Shown piece after piece: positions 5,501 to 61,000 of a stretch of DNA of 64,000 bases. The notes beneath the pieces were generated by a model. The model worked only from the letters and a program-made list of their open reading frames with translations, was not told the origin of the DNA and searched no databases. Each line of letters starts with the position of its first letter. The stretch's first letter is position 1. Position numbers and translations under genes: made by a program. The stretch is from Xiphias gladius (taxonomy: Eukaryota > Chordata > Actinopteri > Istiophoriformes > Xiphiidae): contig NC_053401.1 of assembly GCF_016859285.1 (NCBI RefSeq), positions 10,891,661 through 10,955,660 of the forward strand. The letters are read 5' to 3'.

Positions 5501-6955
5501 TACAGTATGTTTATACATCAGGTAAAGTCTAATATATTTACTATAGTGTAACAATGACGTTATGACCCTTATGTTTAACTACTGTAGCATTAATTCAGCA
5601 TAACCCCGGTTTACATGAATCCAGTTATATGTTCACACCTGGAAGTTGACCAGTGAAACCAGACTGACACCCACAGTGCCTTGCTCGAGGGTACCACAAT
5701 TGTGTGTTTGTATAGGACAGCACAATCGCTTTCCCCACCCAGTAGGAGCGTAGTGCCAGTATAGTGCTTTTACTTAGCTACCAAGGACTCTTTCTTTCAA
5801 AAGTGCTAGAATTTCTTCATATTAGTTTGCAATTAGTCGCACTGGTGTTATGTTACGTTTCTCAAATGCTGCATATCAAATTTCCTCCATTAGCGACTCA
5901 GTAATCTCACAAAAATAGAGCTGAAATTATTAATCAATTAATCAATAGGTCAAACAACAGGAAATGAATTTGCAACTATTTTTGATAATCGATTAATCAT
6001 TTTGGTAGTCTTCTAAGCAAAAATGCCAAATATTCTCTGGTTCCAACATCTCAAACGTGAACATTTGTGAACAATTGTAAATGGTAGCCCTAATCCAAAA
6101 TATGAACTATTTGGACAATGGATGCATTTTACCCCGTTTATTGTAATAAAAACTACCACCATTATACTACAGACAGCTGTGATGACTCTTAGCTACTTTA
6201 AAGAGTAAAGATTTTAAATGCAAAAAAAAAAAAAAAAAAAAGGCCCAATAAGCTCAAATCTGTTAAATCGTCAGACTTCAAAGTTGCCAGTGTGACAGGC
6301 TGGAATGCGCTCGCTTCAAAGGAATTTTCAGCCTCGTACATATATTTTCTAGCAGCTAAATCATGTGAATATGCAGTTGGATTTCTGGGGGGGAACTGGT
6401 AATCTTCCTTATTCAATATATTGAGTGAAAGCAAAATTAGTCCATGTGTCCTTTCACTTTACTCTCCCCTTTAAAATGGTGCAGCACCAGCAGCGTATGA
6501 AGCAGTTACTGTAGACCTCTTAACACATTAAAATAAGTCTTACTTAGTGCAACAATCATTGGTTTTTATTTTTGAATCTGAACTCCATTTTAAATACTAC
6601 AGGAATATTATTTCATTGCAGTATTTCAGTTTTTAAGGTAAGAATTTGTGTACTTTTTTCTCAACTGAAAAATGACAGTTTATGGTATATATTATAGTGG
6701 TACAAAAATAGTATATATTTATTAATTGTATAGTACAGCTGGCGAAGCACAAAGAATATACCAAAAAATGTGAAAAATCTTAATCTAAATACAAATATTC
6801 CAATATTTAGCAGAGCACAACGCAAGTGGGAATTTAGCTACAGGAAATACCTGCATCAAAATATTAGTCTACACATTTTTACGACACATGAGTAGACCAA
6901 CTACATGCATAAAAAACATCAAGAATAAAATTCAGTTACTTACTTTTTTCCTCAT
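2529..6955 (-). CDS. kitlg: Kit ligand (stem cell factor), single-pass membrane cytokine, seven coding exons
   Basis: This is a ligand of the Kit receptor tyrosine kinase, which in vertebrates supports pigment, germ and blood precursor cells. Exons in reading order: 6955-6944, 5464-5357, 5173-5117, 5010-4852, 4635-4482, 4015-3915, 2693-2529. All junctions are GT-AG, phases agree, and the total is 251 residues; human KITLG has 273. The start reads MRKK and then a donor, matching the tiny first coding exon of mammalian KITLG. Exon 2 gives a hydrophobic signal peptide (about residues 5-21) followed by SGKFGTPITDDVSKLSLL. Exons 3-4 contain PSDYEIPVSYIPKEV, TCWVVLNIYPLEQSL and ISSNKENIIVFI, which resemble remembered fish Kit ligands. 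Cysteines at about 22, 63, 121 and 153 can form the two family disulfides, and there is an extra one at 158. A transmembrane helix lies at about 179-197, followed by a basic RSGRR stop-transfer and a short tail. The last exon rests on splice signals and composition only. I cannot say whether this is the a or b teleost paralogue. Confidence 0.85.
3420..3725 (+). repeat. Dispersed teleost repeat, 'GCTAAC' family, truncated copy
   Basis: The segment has the repeated words ATGCTAAC and ATGCTAGCA, then AACACAAAGTACAGCCGAG and a GACATTAGTTTTCAGGTATTTG-like block. The same order of blocks occurs at 13945-14490, and in reverse orientation at 9597-9745. I recognise this as a very common, non-coding interspersed family in percomorph genomes. 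It sits in the last intron of kitlg. The class (DNA element or SINE-like) cannot be settled from sequence alone. Confidence 0.65.
5925..6085. repeat. Dispersed teleost repeat, 'AATCGATTAATC' family
   Basis: Contains TTAATCAATTAATCAATAG, then GATAATCGATTAATCATTTT, then AAGCAAAAATGCCAAATATTC and CTCTGGTTCCAACATCTCAAA. This is the layout of a well-known non-coding interspersed family in teleosts. A partial copy in the opposite orientation lies near 54090-54195. It sits in kitlg intron 1. Confidence 0.6.
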
Positions 6956-15473: not shown

Positions 15474-16175
15474 ATGAGTTGTTTCGGGTACCGTCGAGAG
15501 CTGAGTAAATACGAAGATGTTGATGAGGACGAGCTTTTGGCTTCCCTCAGCCCCGAGGAGCTTGCTGAGTTGGAAAAGGAGCTGGCGGACATCGATCCTG
15601 ACTCCAATGTGCCCATAGGACTCAGACAGAGAGATCAGACGGACAAGACCCCTACGGGCACCTTCAGCAGAGAGGCTCTCATGAAGTACTGGGAAAACGA
15701 GACACGTAGACTGCTGGAGGACGAGATAAGTGGAGGGAGCCCCAAACCGGTCAGTGATGGTGTTTAATTAGATTTGCCTGGCATTTGTAAAATGTGCCAG
15801 AGGCAGCTTGTTTGAAGTTGTATCAGATGAAACTCCGGAAGGATTACTTAAAAAAGCTAAAAGTAAGAAGTCGTTTGAATTTTCTAAAAGGAAGGAAAAT
15901 CATAGCAAATAGCTACAGCTGCCTTAAAACCACTTGTGTTATTTTTGTTTTACACTATATATGATATCTAAGTTTTAAAGAAAACAAATACTCGTAATGA
16001 GAATACTGCATTTCAAACACTGAAGGACTTTTTCAAAATACAGGATGAAGAACAAGAGGAGTGTGTGACAGAAGGAGGCAGTGAGACAGAGGATGAAAAA
16101 GATGACGAAAATGAGAAAGAACAGAAAAAGTATGAAAGGAAAGAAGAAGAGGAAGAACAGGATGATGAGGATGAA

Positions 16176-16210
<35 letters not shown>

Positions 16211-19200
16211 TGACAGTGAGGAAGAGGAGGAAGCTATAACAGAGGAGGAAGAGGAGGAAGATGAGGAGGAGGAGGAGGAACAAGATAATAAATCAAAACC
16301 TGAACCCTCAAATTATTGTGGCACATCGCGGGCCGACACCCCAAAGCTACTAAAACCTCAGAGGGTGGAGCCCATTAGGCTGACTCCTCCCCCTCCACCT
16401 GCTGACACCAACACGACCGGAAACCCGACTGTTGTCGACGAAGCTCTCCAAAAAGTCCTTAGCGACGACCCTGAACTCACAGAGGTTAATCTCAACAACA
16501 TTGACGACATCTCACAGGTATTAGTACAGACTGGCACGCCTTTCATGACAAAATGTACGCCTGTCATGGAAAAATTGCAAAACACTAAACACTTCTTCGC
16601 AATATTTGTCATTTTTCCTTCTTACCCAGAAGAAGTCTCATTGATGCTTTTTTGCTGTTTTATTTTTAAAAGTTATGTTAGCAGCTACATTAGCCTAGCT
16701 TAACTCTTATTGGAAGTCTACGGTATCAGTAAGGACAGGAAAATAAACATCCTATAATATTAGGGGATCATTGCTCATAATTTAAAGGTTTTTCTCAAAT
16801 TATTCACATCTGCCAAGAATAGTGTAGTTTAGAAATATCTTTTTTGATGTGGACTCATTACTTTAGTGGTGAAATTAACAATTTAGTAAATCATGATATT
16901 AAGTCTATTGTATTAGTCAAGAATTGGAAGTTTGAATGTGTCTTTCAGGAAAGACTGTAAATATCAAGTAATTAAACCTAAAATATTAGTAGTATCTAAT
17001 GCAGTTATAGCATTAAAACAGGTATGAAGATATGAACTCCTTTATGAAGGTAAAAAAACTGTCTAGTTAAGTTCTACATTTTTCACCAAAACAGTAGATT
17101 AACTCTGAGTTTCCAGTGGTAGAGTTTCCTCAGTGGTAGAAATGCATTAGCTTCCAGCTTGCTGGGATTCTGCTCTTCATTGTTGAGTATCTTTTGATTG
17201 TGTGCCATCTTATTTTTAGAAAAAGGCATCTTGTCATGGATTATGTAATGGAGGGCATACTTCACATTATTTGATACAAACACTTCCTATGACTGGAAAG
17301 TAAGCAAACACATGGTGTCCTTTGACAATTTTTAAGTTTTCTGTCTGCACCTCAAGTTGAATGCTACCTGTGGTTTACTCAATGGCAAGTAGTAGCTAGG
17401 AAGATTATTTTACTCAATTTGTTACTATATAGAATGGCAAGAGGACAACTGCCTCGCAATATGGGTTCAAGCTCTTGTGTTGACTTGGTAAATAATGGCC
17501 TTACTGAAGTGTTAAATTTTTTTCAGGATGCTTTGACCTCTATGTGGTGGTGGTGGCAGCGGAGAACGAATGGTCCTAATCATAACCATCCATGTAATTA
17601 AATTAACTATAAAGCTCCTTGTTTCAAAGTTTCAAAAAGTTTAAGTGGGGTATATAATTTGTTGTAAGACAGGTCAAATGATATGCTATATGATCTAATG
17701 TTTCAAGTTCTCACATGTTACGGAGAATGTAAACATTCCAATTTTCTTCTTAGGAAACCCTAATCCGATTTGCTGAAGCACTGAGATCCAACACACATGT
17801 GCGGATCTTTAGCCTTGCAAACACCCGAGCCGACGACCCCGTGGCTCTGGCCATCGCTAAGATGCTTAAGGAGAACTCGTCCATCACCAGTCTGAATATA
17901 GAGTCCAACTATGTGACCGGGAAGGGTGTAATGGCACTGGTTCAATCACTCCCGGGAAACAACACCCTGACTGAGCTCCGGTTCCACAACCAGAGACACA
18001 TGTGTGGAGGACAGGTTAGTTCTCTTCCCTCACCTCCCATTATGGTTCCTTCATTTCCTGCATTTGTGAGGTGTAACCCTGTCTTCCCTCCTTAAACTGC
18101 ATCCCACAGGTAGAGATGGAGATGGTGAAGATTCTGAGGGAAAACTACACCTTGATCAAGCTGGGTTACCAGTTCAACCTCCCTGGTCCCAGAATGAGCA
18201 TGACAGGAATCCTCACCAGGAACCAGGACCGCCAGAGACAGAAACGATTGCAGGAGCAGAGGCAACAGCAGCAGGACAAACAAGGGGTGACAGAGGGAGC
18301 TGTTAACCCCCGAACCACTGCACTGGTACTTAACTTTGCTCCTAAAAGAGACATATCACAAAAGTGGATCATTTATAAGCTGTTCTGACTGGATTGCATC
18401 CCACTGGCAGATGATTGCATTCTTTTTTAGTGATTTATGTTTTCGTATTTATCTATTTCCCTGTCTCTGTCTCTAGAGAGGAACGCCTAGTTCATCACCT
18501 TACAGCTCACCCAGAGCTTCTCCTTGGTCCTCACCCAAACTCCCCCGGAGCGACCTGGCTAAAAAACAGACTCCTCCAGCTCCACCTCCTCCTCCCCCTC
18601 CACCACCTCCTCCTCCCCCACCTCCTCCACCACTGCCGCCTCCGCAGCAAGAGAAGAAGAAGCCCACCAGGATGATCGCAGAGGTCATCAAGGCGCATGA
18701 GGCGGGCAAAAAGAAGGTGACAAAGACAAAAGGGAAGAAGGGCAAGAAGGGGAAGGAGAAGGAGTCTGGGAAAGATGAGACGAATAGCATCCTGAAGGAG
18801 CTCAAGAACGTGCTGAGGCCTGTGTCGGTGGAGAGGAGAGGGGAGGAGGGCAGCCGGCCATCCACGCCAATGAGGTCAGCCCACGACCAGCTGATGGAGT
18901 CCATCCGCAACAGCAGCATCCGCAGCCTGAGACGGGTGAGTGGAGGGATTTATGCGCCAAAATTAGCTGTTAATTTTTTCACTTCCACCTTTGTTATCAG
19001 TGGTATTGTCCCCTAAACACTGTATCAAACTGAAGATGGATTATTTAGAAAAGTATTGAGTGAAAAGTGGCAAAAAACATTCTTCCTCCACAAGCAGTTC
19101 AGCAGTGTGCTTAGTGAAAAACTGCAGGGTCCCGTTATAGTCAAACTGAACAAACAGGAAGATTAATTTAGATGAGGATGACACAGAGTTGGTGGTGTCT

Positions 19201-57211: not shown

Positions 57212-60200
57212 ATGGTTTCTGTCACAAAGAAGAGCAGAAGTTGTGTGCTGCTGCTTCTCTCAGTCACACAGTCAGTCCTTCCCCCTCTGCCCCGCTTTTT
57301 CTTCACCGTAATAACCACTTCTGTCTGGCCTGCTCTTGCATTAGCTGCCCTGAGGACACCAAAAGCCGTGACACTTCCTGTTGGTGACACAAACAAATCA
57401 ACCTTCATCCTACCAGCTACCTTTTCGCCTGCTTTTACCAATTCTGCTATCAAAAGATCATCCACCACCACACAGTCCTCTAACTACTTTTCTCTTACTA
57501 CCATTACCCCATCTTCTTCGTCAAAAAACTCTATTACAGTTCCCTCAAATTTGATGTCAACTGCCTCTACAATGTCAGTGTCACTCCTTGGCCAAACATC
57601 CCCCAGAGATGATGTCCTCATAACCTCACCGAAAGCTTCTACAATAGCTGTTTCCCCTCAGTTTGGCAAAAAAGCCTCTCTGAGTCCTGATTCAGTCCAT
57701 TCTCATCCAGTATCTCACTGTCTTCTTCGACCCCTAAAACAAAGTTCAAGGTTGCTACCTCACCCCTGCAAACATTTGACTCTGTCCCTCAAAACTATGG
57801 CACCTTCTTTGCACGAAAACCTTCAGTCTCCTCTGTCCAAAATGTCTCTGTATCCTGTGTCTTCTGAAAAAGTTGCTCTTCAGCCTCCTAAGCCTCCTAA
57901 ACCTCAGCCTCCCATCTCATCAGCCTCACTGATTTCTCCCTCCAACTTAACTTTGCTTCCAAAAGGTTTGCCATCTTCTAATTCTTCAAACAAGCCTCCT
58001 CCCAGAGTCCCACCCATTCCTCTCCTCAAAACCTCACCATCTCCTTCAGAAGGAACAAGCTTTCGCCAGCCCAGACTACCACCGCTCCGATCTCTCCCTC
58101 ACACCAAAGGTCCGCTGTTTGAGCACCAGCCTTTCACTGTCAGTTGGAACATCCCTGATCTGGTGTGTAACAGATACAAGATCTCACTGGACACTTCTCC
58201 CTTTAAAGGAGTGGCCACACCTGCTAAGGTAAAGGGACAAATATTTCAATGTTTTCTGTTGGAAATGGGATTAAACTCTTCTTTATTCACATTTTTACGT
58301 GCACATCCATTGCTGCAAAACACATGCTGTAATCAAACTGCAAAATCTATGTCATCTTCTGAATCTCTGGTTTGCTCCGTGTCTTACATGTATGAAAAAA
58401 AAAGAGTCTAGGTCTTGTTTCTACATGGTGTCACCACATGAAAAAAGGCATGAATATTTACAATTTAATGTCCATGCGGGCCTCTTTAAGTTGAGGTTAT
58501 AAAGCTGGTTTTCTTCCTGAAATCATCATGTTACACTGTACTTATCCAAGTAAAATTTAAAAGTTGATGCACTTTGTCCTGTTTTGGTTGTAGGTTCCAG
58601 GCCAGTTCCTTAGTCTGTTCTACAGAGACCGACTGGGTCTTTACCCACATGTAGATCTCACTAGTAGAAAACTGTTCTATGGCGGCATTCCTCAGAGAGG
58701 TAACCTGAAAGCCAGTATGAAGAAGGCCAGAGCAGATATTAACTACTACATCCCATCCAAGTGAGCCGATCTAAATCTCATAATTTCACCCTTTGATACA
58801 TTTGGCTCTGATTTTTATCCTCCTCCTCATCCTCCTGTTTTCATTCCAGGACAAGTCGGGGCTTGGCCGTGATAGACTGGGAGGAATGGCGTCCCCTATG
58901 GGACAGAAACTGGGGCACTAAAAGAATCTACCAGACCTTATCTGTGGCTCATGTCATGCAGACAAACCGCTCCCTCACAGTACAGCAGGCTACAGAAAAA
59001 GCCAAACAACAGTTCGAGGTCAGAATTAACTGTGAAGGTTGATGAAACTAATTATTCAGTTCTAATGAATATTGATGAATAGCTCTTCCTTTCTAGCTAG
59101 CAGCCAGAAGTCTGATGTCAAGGATGTTAGCAATGGGCAGTGCTATGAGACCCAACTACCTCTGGGGCTTCTACCTGTTTCCTAACTGCTATAACTATGG
59201 CTGGTTGGAGCCAGACTACACAGGCCAGTGCTCCAAGGAGGTGAAGAGACAGAATGATAAGCTGCTGTGGCTCTGGGAGTCCAGCACTGCCCTCTACCCC
59301 TCTGTGTATCTGCAGGTTGGTTAAAAAAAAAAAAAAGCTGTCCCAAATTTTATTTTCAGATTTTAGACTCCTCAGGCTGATTTTTCCCTGTGTTCTTGCC
59401 CTGTTTGAGGCCTCTTTGTCAGATAATCCCAGAGCTGCCCTGATGGTGAGAAACCGTGTGAAGGAAGCTTTGAGAGTGTCGGCCCTGCCAAGACAGAGGG
59501 GCACTGTGCCCGTGTTTGTTTACATGCGACCTGTCTTTGTTGATCAGAACAGACGCTTCCTCAGCCAGGTAAATAGGAGTGACTGAAATGGTGATTTGTT
59601 TAATACATGTGTCTTTCACAGAGGTATTAATCTAAATGGTACATGGCATGAATCCCCAATGATGCAAGGGAGCGACCACACACTTGACTAGATTAGATAT
59701 ATCTTAGGTTACTTCTTCATCTCAGCAGTAAGGTGTTTCCAGCTGATTTTAAAGAGGAGTTTGGTTTCTTTGGTGTAACAACACCCTGCCCAGGTGGTAA
59801 CCCCCACCTGAATGTGTAATCCTTATCCTCTCTTCTCACTTTGTACAATGTGTATTACTATTTTTATACCTAAGTGTGTATAAAACCGAACAGTAGAAAA
59901 GTCTGTGCAGCATGTATTCATTTGTGAATGCCTGTGGCTTTTTTCGTTTTCTTTTTTTCTTTTTTTTCTTGTATTTTTGTATGTGTACAGAGGACTTAGT
60001 GAACATGTTTAACCATTTGTGTCCAGGGGGACTTAGTCAGCACCATTGGGGAGAGTGCAGCAGTGGGAGCGTCGGGTGCTGTGCTGTGGGGGGCCAGCGC
60101 TGACTATGATGACCGGGTAACATCACACCGCAGACCTCCACTGGACCGCTGAAAGACATGGCAGTGTACTGATGGCATGTAGTCAGAAAGAGACAAAGGG

Positions 60201-61000
60201 TTCAGTGAGATGGTCTAGGAGTCTGATAATCTGATAATAGCGGCTGACTGATTGTGGTGGTTGCTGCTGTGGTGATATTAGTTAATCCATGGCAGGGAAG
60301 CCAAGATTAGCTTGATGATAGTGACTTTCAATTGATTTTTAGAGTCTGTTTAAAGACATATATGAAGGTGGTCTCAATCTTCTCATCTAACCATGGGCTT
60401 TCCTTTAATCATAAGTAGGCATAGTAACAAATATGAGGACTGATGAATTGCTGTGGTGTTCCTAAACAGACATATAGTGATATATACAAAGTATATATTT
60501 AGTTTTGAATGATTGATTGCTCTTCTTGTTCCTTTTTCCACTCTCTTTCCCTTGCTCCCCAGGCCTCTTGTGAATCCCTCTCATCCTACCTCTCCTCCAC
60601 CCTCAACCCTTACATCACCAATGTCACCGCGGCCGCCCAGCTCTGCAGTGACTTCCTGTGCCAGGGGAATGGCCGCTGTGTCCGCAAAAACTACAACTCC
60701 AATCACTACCTCCACCTAAACCCTGAGAATTTCAGGGTCATGCATATCCAGAACCGCTACTTTGTTCTAGGGAGACCAACCTTTGCAGACCTGAAGACTT
60801 TGAGCAGGAGATTTACCTGCCAATGCTACAAAGGACTGAGCTGCACTCCCAGGACATACAGTGAACTTGCCAAGGCCCTGATATTAAGTTTGAAACAAGG
60901 GCTGCAACAAAAAGCCCATACTCTGAATAAAGCTGTGTTGGATGATCCGCAACAAGCTAGTATTGCTAAGGACAATGTTAAGAAAAACTTGAAAGTTTAG
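57212..61000 (+). CDS. hyal4: Hyaluronidase (PH-20/HYAL4 type, glycoside hydrolase 56) with long Ser/Thr/Pro-rich N-terminal extension
   Basis: This endo-hyaluronidase cleaves hyaluronan (HYAL4 prefers chondroitin sulfate); the symbol follows synteny and HYAL6/SPAM1 are alternatives. Exons: 57212-58228, 58594-58760, 58850-59018, 59097-59315, 59410-59568, 60027-60116, 60563-61000. These give 2259 nt, 752 residues; family members are usually 430-510. The start follows acceptor TTTGTCTTCAG, with AAAGGATGG around the ATG, and residues about 11-26 look like a signal peptide. Residues about 30-300 are Ser/Thr/Pro-rich. The hyaluronidase domain begins near residue 307 (PFTVSWNIPDLVC). The catalytic pair is in LAVIDWEEWRPLWDRNW (D404, E406), and NYLWGFYLFPNCYNY, WLWESSTALYPSVYL and VRNRVKEALRVS are conserved. 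The 90-nt exon is a family hallmark. The last exon holds the EGF-like region (CQGNGRCVRKN ... CQCYKGLSC). There is no hydrophobic GPI tail, so a secreted product is likely. Catalytic residues are intact. Confidence 0.9.

Follow-up and report, generated by a model that had tools for sequence, protein, structure and literature searches.

A hyaluronidase gene of Xiphias gladius with a long, stop-free Ser/Thr/Pro-rich frame ahead of its catalytic domain

The window analysed here is a stretch of 64,000 nucleotides (C2:10891661-10955660) of the 690.8-Mb Xiphias gladius assembly, and it contains a hyaluronidase gene. Upstream of this gene, matches to the Ank, Tropomodulin, PBD and WH2 domains were found, and from these domains and their order the neighbours are assigned as ASB15, LMOD2 and WASL (minus strand). 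The human gene order is described as ASB15, LMOD2, WASL, HYAL4 and SPAM1 on chromosome 7 (PMC4074351), and the human hyaluronidase genes are described as forming two clusters (PMC11275217). The window gene, which adjoins asb15, lmod2 and wasl, has the setting of the HYAL4/SPAM1 locus. The assigned lmod2 includes a long acidic stretch rich in Glu and Asp (window positions 15972-16700); a Nop14 match at the same positions scores under the curated cut-off and probably reflects composition.

The spliced hyaluronidase gene encodes 752 aa in 7 coding exons on the plus strand. The coding part of exon 1 (57212-58228) comprises 1017 nt and runs without an in-frame stop from the Met start into the GH56 domain, and the exon is bounded by an acceptor before 57200 (score 5.9) and a donor after 58228 (score 3.6). 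ATG 57212 is the earliest in-frame Met and lies in a good Kozak context, with A at -3 and G at +4. It opens a signal-peptide-like N-terminus (residues 1-45, 57212-57346), recognized from its sequence and a cleavage matrix, which is followed by the extension proper (residues 46-305, 57347-58126), a single-copy stretch rich in Ser, Thr and Pro. In total, 305 residues lie ahead of QPFTVSWNIPDLVC, the start of the domain, and exon 1 ends with the first 34 hyaluronidase residues (306-339, 58127-58228). A sequence-only reading of this DNA had described an uninterrupted in-frame coding exon of 1017 nt, a signal-peptide-like start, about 300 residues including PPKPPKPQPP, and good splice sites. The exon and its length are borne out, the open extension is joined in frame to an intact hyaluronidase, the motif lies at residues 225-234 (57884-57913), and the exon 1 splice sites reasonably fit their description.

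The catalytic domain continues in exon 2 (58594-58760, acceptor 4.3), exon 3 (58850-59018), which carries D404-x-E406, exon 4 (59097-59315), exon 5 (59410-59568) and the 90-nt exon 6 (60027-60116), where it ends. Exon 7 (60563-61000) encodes the Cys-rich C-terminal part and the stop. Weak splice scores were obtained for the acceptor of exon 5 (0.9) and for both sites of exon 6 (acceptor 1.4, donor 0.8), and the boundaries of exons 5-7 were fixed by reading frame and homology. The modelled junctions are supported by the few gaps in the alignments with PH-20 and HYAL1. PF01630 is matched across its whole profile (1-335 of 335, E 7.8e-129) by protein residues 301-632. D404 and E406, which we take to be the catalytic residues of a GH56 hyaluronidase, stand in an AVIDWExW context and align with those of PH-20 and HYAL1. 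Judged by its sequence, the window gene encodes an intact GH56 hyaluronidase. Its C-terminus has no hydrophobic tail, the best 15-residue window in the last 60 residues reaching 0.69.

A Pfam search of the genome returned at least 24 GH56 exon matches, a lower bound, which were grouped into ten genes. These genes, at least ten in number, comprise the window gene on C2, four on C8, three on C21 and two on C18. In the nine others found, a signal peptide lies shortly before the domain and inside the exon that starts it. The residues ahead of the domain number about 31-53 in eight of these paralogs and 76 in the ninth (C18:9.40 Mb), as against 305 in the window gene, which thus departs from the conventional architecture in which the domain follows soon after the signal peptide. 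The contrast with conventional hyaluronidases that had been proposed earlier is therefore upheld within the animal's own genome, among the nine other GH56 genes found. Across the eight paralogs with shorter N-termini, signal scores run from 3.8 to 10.8, and the lowest belongs to the closest paralog. The 76-residue N-terminus of the C18:9.40 Mb gene (L023, about 6440-6775, minus strand) has PDPEPEPEPK before its hydrophobic segment. The genes at C21:14.485 and C21:16.201 Mb (L028 and L029) lie on opposite strands, 1.7 Mb apart; they are mutually closest (bootstrap 100), a sign of recent duplication.

The closest paralog was identified in a tree with ultrafast bootstrap, built from eight fish paralogs including the window gene and two human proteins, with the two C18 genes (split) and HYAL4 left out. 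The window gene and C8_28642 (C8:28.64 Mb) are joined at bootstrap 100 and share 51.8% identity, and human PH-20 joins C8_28631 with a support of only 49. C8_28642 has a conventional start and holds the counterpart of window residues 294-576 in one exon, as a single match. In seven of the nine other genes found, profile positions 1-3 to 276-280 lie in one open frame; the domain is split by introns in the window gene and both C18 genes, three of the ten found. The introns inside the catalytic stretch of the window gene measure 365, 89, 78 and 94 bp (58229-59409). The position of intron 1 in the window gene is a few residues away from that of the first intron in the C18:9.858 Mb gene. In mouse, Hyal6 is described as having four exons, with the ATG in the second and the stop in the fourth (PMC9141766).

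The four C8 hyaluronidases lie at 28.63-28.68 Mb, and the same chromosome carries an lmod2 copy at 28.733 Mb (73% identity over 86 residues) and an asb15-like copy at 28.741 Mb (60% over 78 residues). Within the paralog loci examined, which hold little besides hyaluronidase genes, the asb15, lmod2 and wasl queries found no match, a result that carries no information on the neighbourhood. The C2 and C8 regions appear to be duplicated segments and probably derive from the teleost genome duplication. Since C8_28642 has neither the extension nor the introns, both would have arisen in the C2 copy.

The extension has a biased and uneven composition. Residues 49-305 contain 19% Ser, 9% Thr, 16% Pro and about 12-12.5% Leu, and the net charge of residues 46-305 is +19. 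The first third is rich in Ser and Thr (40%), and the other two thirds contain 22-24% of these residues. The last third, in which PPKPPKPQPP lies, has 26% proline and 22% S+T. Three N-glycosylation sequons occur, at residues 61, 245 and 257. By the charge-hydropathy rule, both the extension and the catalytic part fall on the ordered side; the residue bias of the extension leans towards disorder (0.57 disorder-promoting versus 0.47). An AlphaFold2 run on exon 1 as a single sequence gave no fold (mean pLDDT 39), which says little.

Nothing like the extension was found elsewhere in the genome. A second copy was absent at E up to 1 both as protein (14 candidates scored) and as DNA, in a search that skips simple repeats. 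An origin from a repeat or from another gene was accordingly rejected, there being no second genomic match in either form. Derivation from the N-terminus of the closest paralog was also considered, as residues 29-60 resemble its signal peptide and linker by eye, and was rejected: 16-66% of shuffles reach the four protein scores and 26% reach the DNA score. A search of viral contigs with the 447-residue catalytic part as query gave 17 pattern matches, none confirmed, and one of contigs from other genomes with the first 524 of the 752 residues gave 48, again none confirmed.

The central question is whether the extension is translated. It has no stop in the coding frame, and the two remaining plus-strand frames contain 13 and 9. 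Dinucleotide shuffles of the extension contain 9.0 stops on average and at least 1, none of 5000 being stop-free, which agrees with the earlier claim that such a length is unlikely by chance. The chance of such an open frame would be about e^-9 per exon, and a few cases per genome may occur, so the open frame by itself is strong evidence without being conclusive. Against 3000 shuffles purged of stops, none matched the 42.3% S+T+P of the extension, its C content at codon position 2 (0.456) or its base periodicity. Periodicity was also seen at p < 0.05 in 7 of 11 overlapping 150-nt blocks. This block test is given little weight because it flagged the 900 bases upstream as well (p 0.016) and did not detect modelled exons 2, 4 and 5; among the other stretches covered, it gave p 0.008 for exon 7 and p 0.285 for intron 1.

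Codon usage points the other way. A model trained on 1931 codons, mainly from the catalytic exons of seven paralogs, scored the extension at -0.20, inside the range of 100 non-coding windows (mean -0.29, sd 0.07, maximum -0.107), a set that may hold some WASL exons. The other two frames of the extension outscore frame 0 (-0.139 and -0.020), which ranks top in only 1 of 11 blocks, and the catalytic part reaches +0.14. With synonymous differences only, the scores are -0.197 for the extension, -0.252 for the non-coding mean and +0.049 for the catalytic part. GC3 is 0.397 in the extension versus 0.595 in the catalytic part, and the introns have 0.372 GC. The codon usage of the extension argues against a long-standing coding constraint. 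Taken together, codon usage and GC3 are read here as a sign of young or weakly constrained coding sequence, but are equally compatible with an untranslated stretch.

These values support the reading in which the extension is not translated. A separate first exon further upstream, bringing its own signal peptide, would then splice in near the domain, for example at 58050, or transcription would start internally, and the frame would be a chance product of a C-rich, G-poor stretch. The short N-termini of the nine other GH56 genes found speak for it as well, as does the internal acceptor at 58050, whose score of 4.8 is on par with the exon 2 acceptor (4.3). Only two of 44 internal AG score at least 4, at 57264 and 58050, and none of 41 internal GT scores at least 2, so the extension would be hard to splice out and splicing within it is disfavoured. 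The splice scale behind these values is coarse, built on base frequencies and giving 0.8-4.8 for the six modelled donors and 0.9-8.1 for the seven acceptors. Against an untranslated extension stand the missing stop-free shuffles, the protein-level composition that exceeds stop-purged shuffles, and the signal-peptide-like start with good Kozak context, which stands at the end of the frame opposite the domain. Among the extension's five in-frame Mets, Met 1 has the highest signal score (6.39), a score reached by 14 of 234 background ATGs, and the strongest 19-residue hydrophobic windows all fall within residues 8-49, at the distal end of the extension. Hyaluronidases require a signal peptide, and the signal-peptide-like sequence at this far end favours translation. 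On balance we regard an untranslated extension as unlikely, and consider from the features of the sequence that the extension is quite probably translated.

If it is translated, its hydrophobic N-terminus may be cleaved or may stay as an anchor. Residues 29-47 form the most hydrophobic 19-residue window (1.82; the next non-overlapping one outside the N-terminus reaches 1.22), and positive charges precede them. Uncleaved, they could act as a signal anchor, and the product would be a type II membrane hyaluronidase carried by a Ser/Thr/Pro-rich stalk, where PH-20 relatives have a lipid anchor at the C-terminus instead. The absence of a hydrophobic C-terminal tail would suit such a protein. The cleavage matrix gives good sites after residue 21 (6.39) and after residue 45 (5.14, with Ala at -1 and -3), however, and Thr, Ser, Trp and Pro occur within residues 29-47. 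An uncleaved anchor is considered a serious alternative, though quite an unlikely one. An artefact of the assembly or gene model, by which unrelated sequence became joined to a hyaluronidase gene, is highly improbable: the sequence was judged from the assembly alone, but the window contains no N, the extension is single copy in the genome, and frame and homology run unbroken into the domain.

The most probable reading of the extension is a basic spacer, lineage-specific and probably O-glycosylated, on a hyaluronidase that is secreted. In the scheme that we favour with moderate confidence, this gene of the asb15-lmod2-wasl-hyal locus would be a duplicate of the C8:28.64 Mb gene, probably through the teleost genome duplication. 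In its own lineage, four introns would have been inserted in the catalytic exon and the N-terminal extension gained in frame. The protein would enter the ER by its N-terminal signal, with cleavage near residue 21 or 45, and its Ser/Thr-rich part would be O-glycosylated. It would then be secreted with a flexible spacer of about 260 residues and charge +19 ahead of the catalytic domain. Such a spacer may hold or slow the enzyme on the polyanionic glycosaminoglycans of the matrix, and may also shield it and keep the catalytic domain off other surfaces.

A bolder version holds that after duplication the hyaluronidase was rebuilt as a stalked enzyme, with an anchor or secretion signal and a glycosylated basic stalk of 260 residues that came de novo from non-coding DNA and replaced the lipid anchor of the PH-20 type. 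A recent non-coding origin of the extension fits its non-coding-like codon usage and GC3, its lack of a second genomic match and the plain structure of the duplicate. As a whole, this version is very unlikely to be correct. Should the extension have come from non-coding DNA, an old gene would here have been extended de novo at its terminus. If the variant is real, the extended gene and its extension-free duplicate would offer, within one genome, a clean pair for testing how a spacer affects the stability of a matrix enzyme, its range and its binding to substrate.

The usual description of a vertebrate hyaluronidase is that of a catalytic domain preceded by a signal peptide and followed by a C-terminal module. 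The titles and abstract openings covered in the literature, with most subscription papers outside that scope, gave no account of a long N-terminal hyaluronidase extension. The best solved relative of the window protein is human PH-20/SPAM1 (PDB 9jub), which matches residues 301-700 with 414 bits and shares the catalytic D-x-E. In its matched chain the domain starts near residue 6, and no 305-residue extension precedes it there. PH-20 carries a C-terminal GPI anchor, and the window protein differs from this type in the absence of a hydrophobic C-terminal tail. Mouse sperm HYALs are likewise described as GPI-anchored (PMC9141766). Human HYAL1 (PDB 2pe4) belongs to GH56 by sequence and matches residues 299-700 with 320 bits; it scores below PH-20, its domain begins near chain residue 4, and it falls in a separate clade of the tree. 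Fish venom hyaluronidases, including stonefish SFHYA1 and those of lionfish, are described as closest to PH-20 (PMC4448160, PMC8225006). The lionfish enzymes are given as 483 aa (PMC11856947) and the stonefish enzyme as 62 and 59 kDa (PMC4448160, PMC8225006), so that, compared by these descriptions, they are of conventional size, unlike the window protein.

The sequence-only reading had called the extension mucin-like, which holds in part. Richness in Ser, Thr and Pro is common to the extension and to mucin (PTS) domains, for which the threshold is S+T of at least 40% over 100 residues; the extension reaches 0.40 in its single best window of that length (residues 70-169, 57419-57718). A Drosophila survey (PMC2515642) required that S+T exceed 25% of the protein and that four or more repeats be present. 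S+T over the entire window protein is 19.4%, and the repeat search of exon 1 returned a single 16-nt pair plus a 9-nt unit in 2.7 copies, with no mucin-type repeated units. The extension further differs from mucin domains in the lower S+T of two of its thirds, in its Pro-rich last third and in its 12.5% Leu. From its sequence, "Ser/Thr/Pro-rich basic spacer" appears to describe the extension better than "mucin domain".
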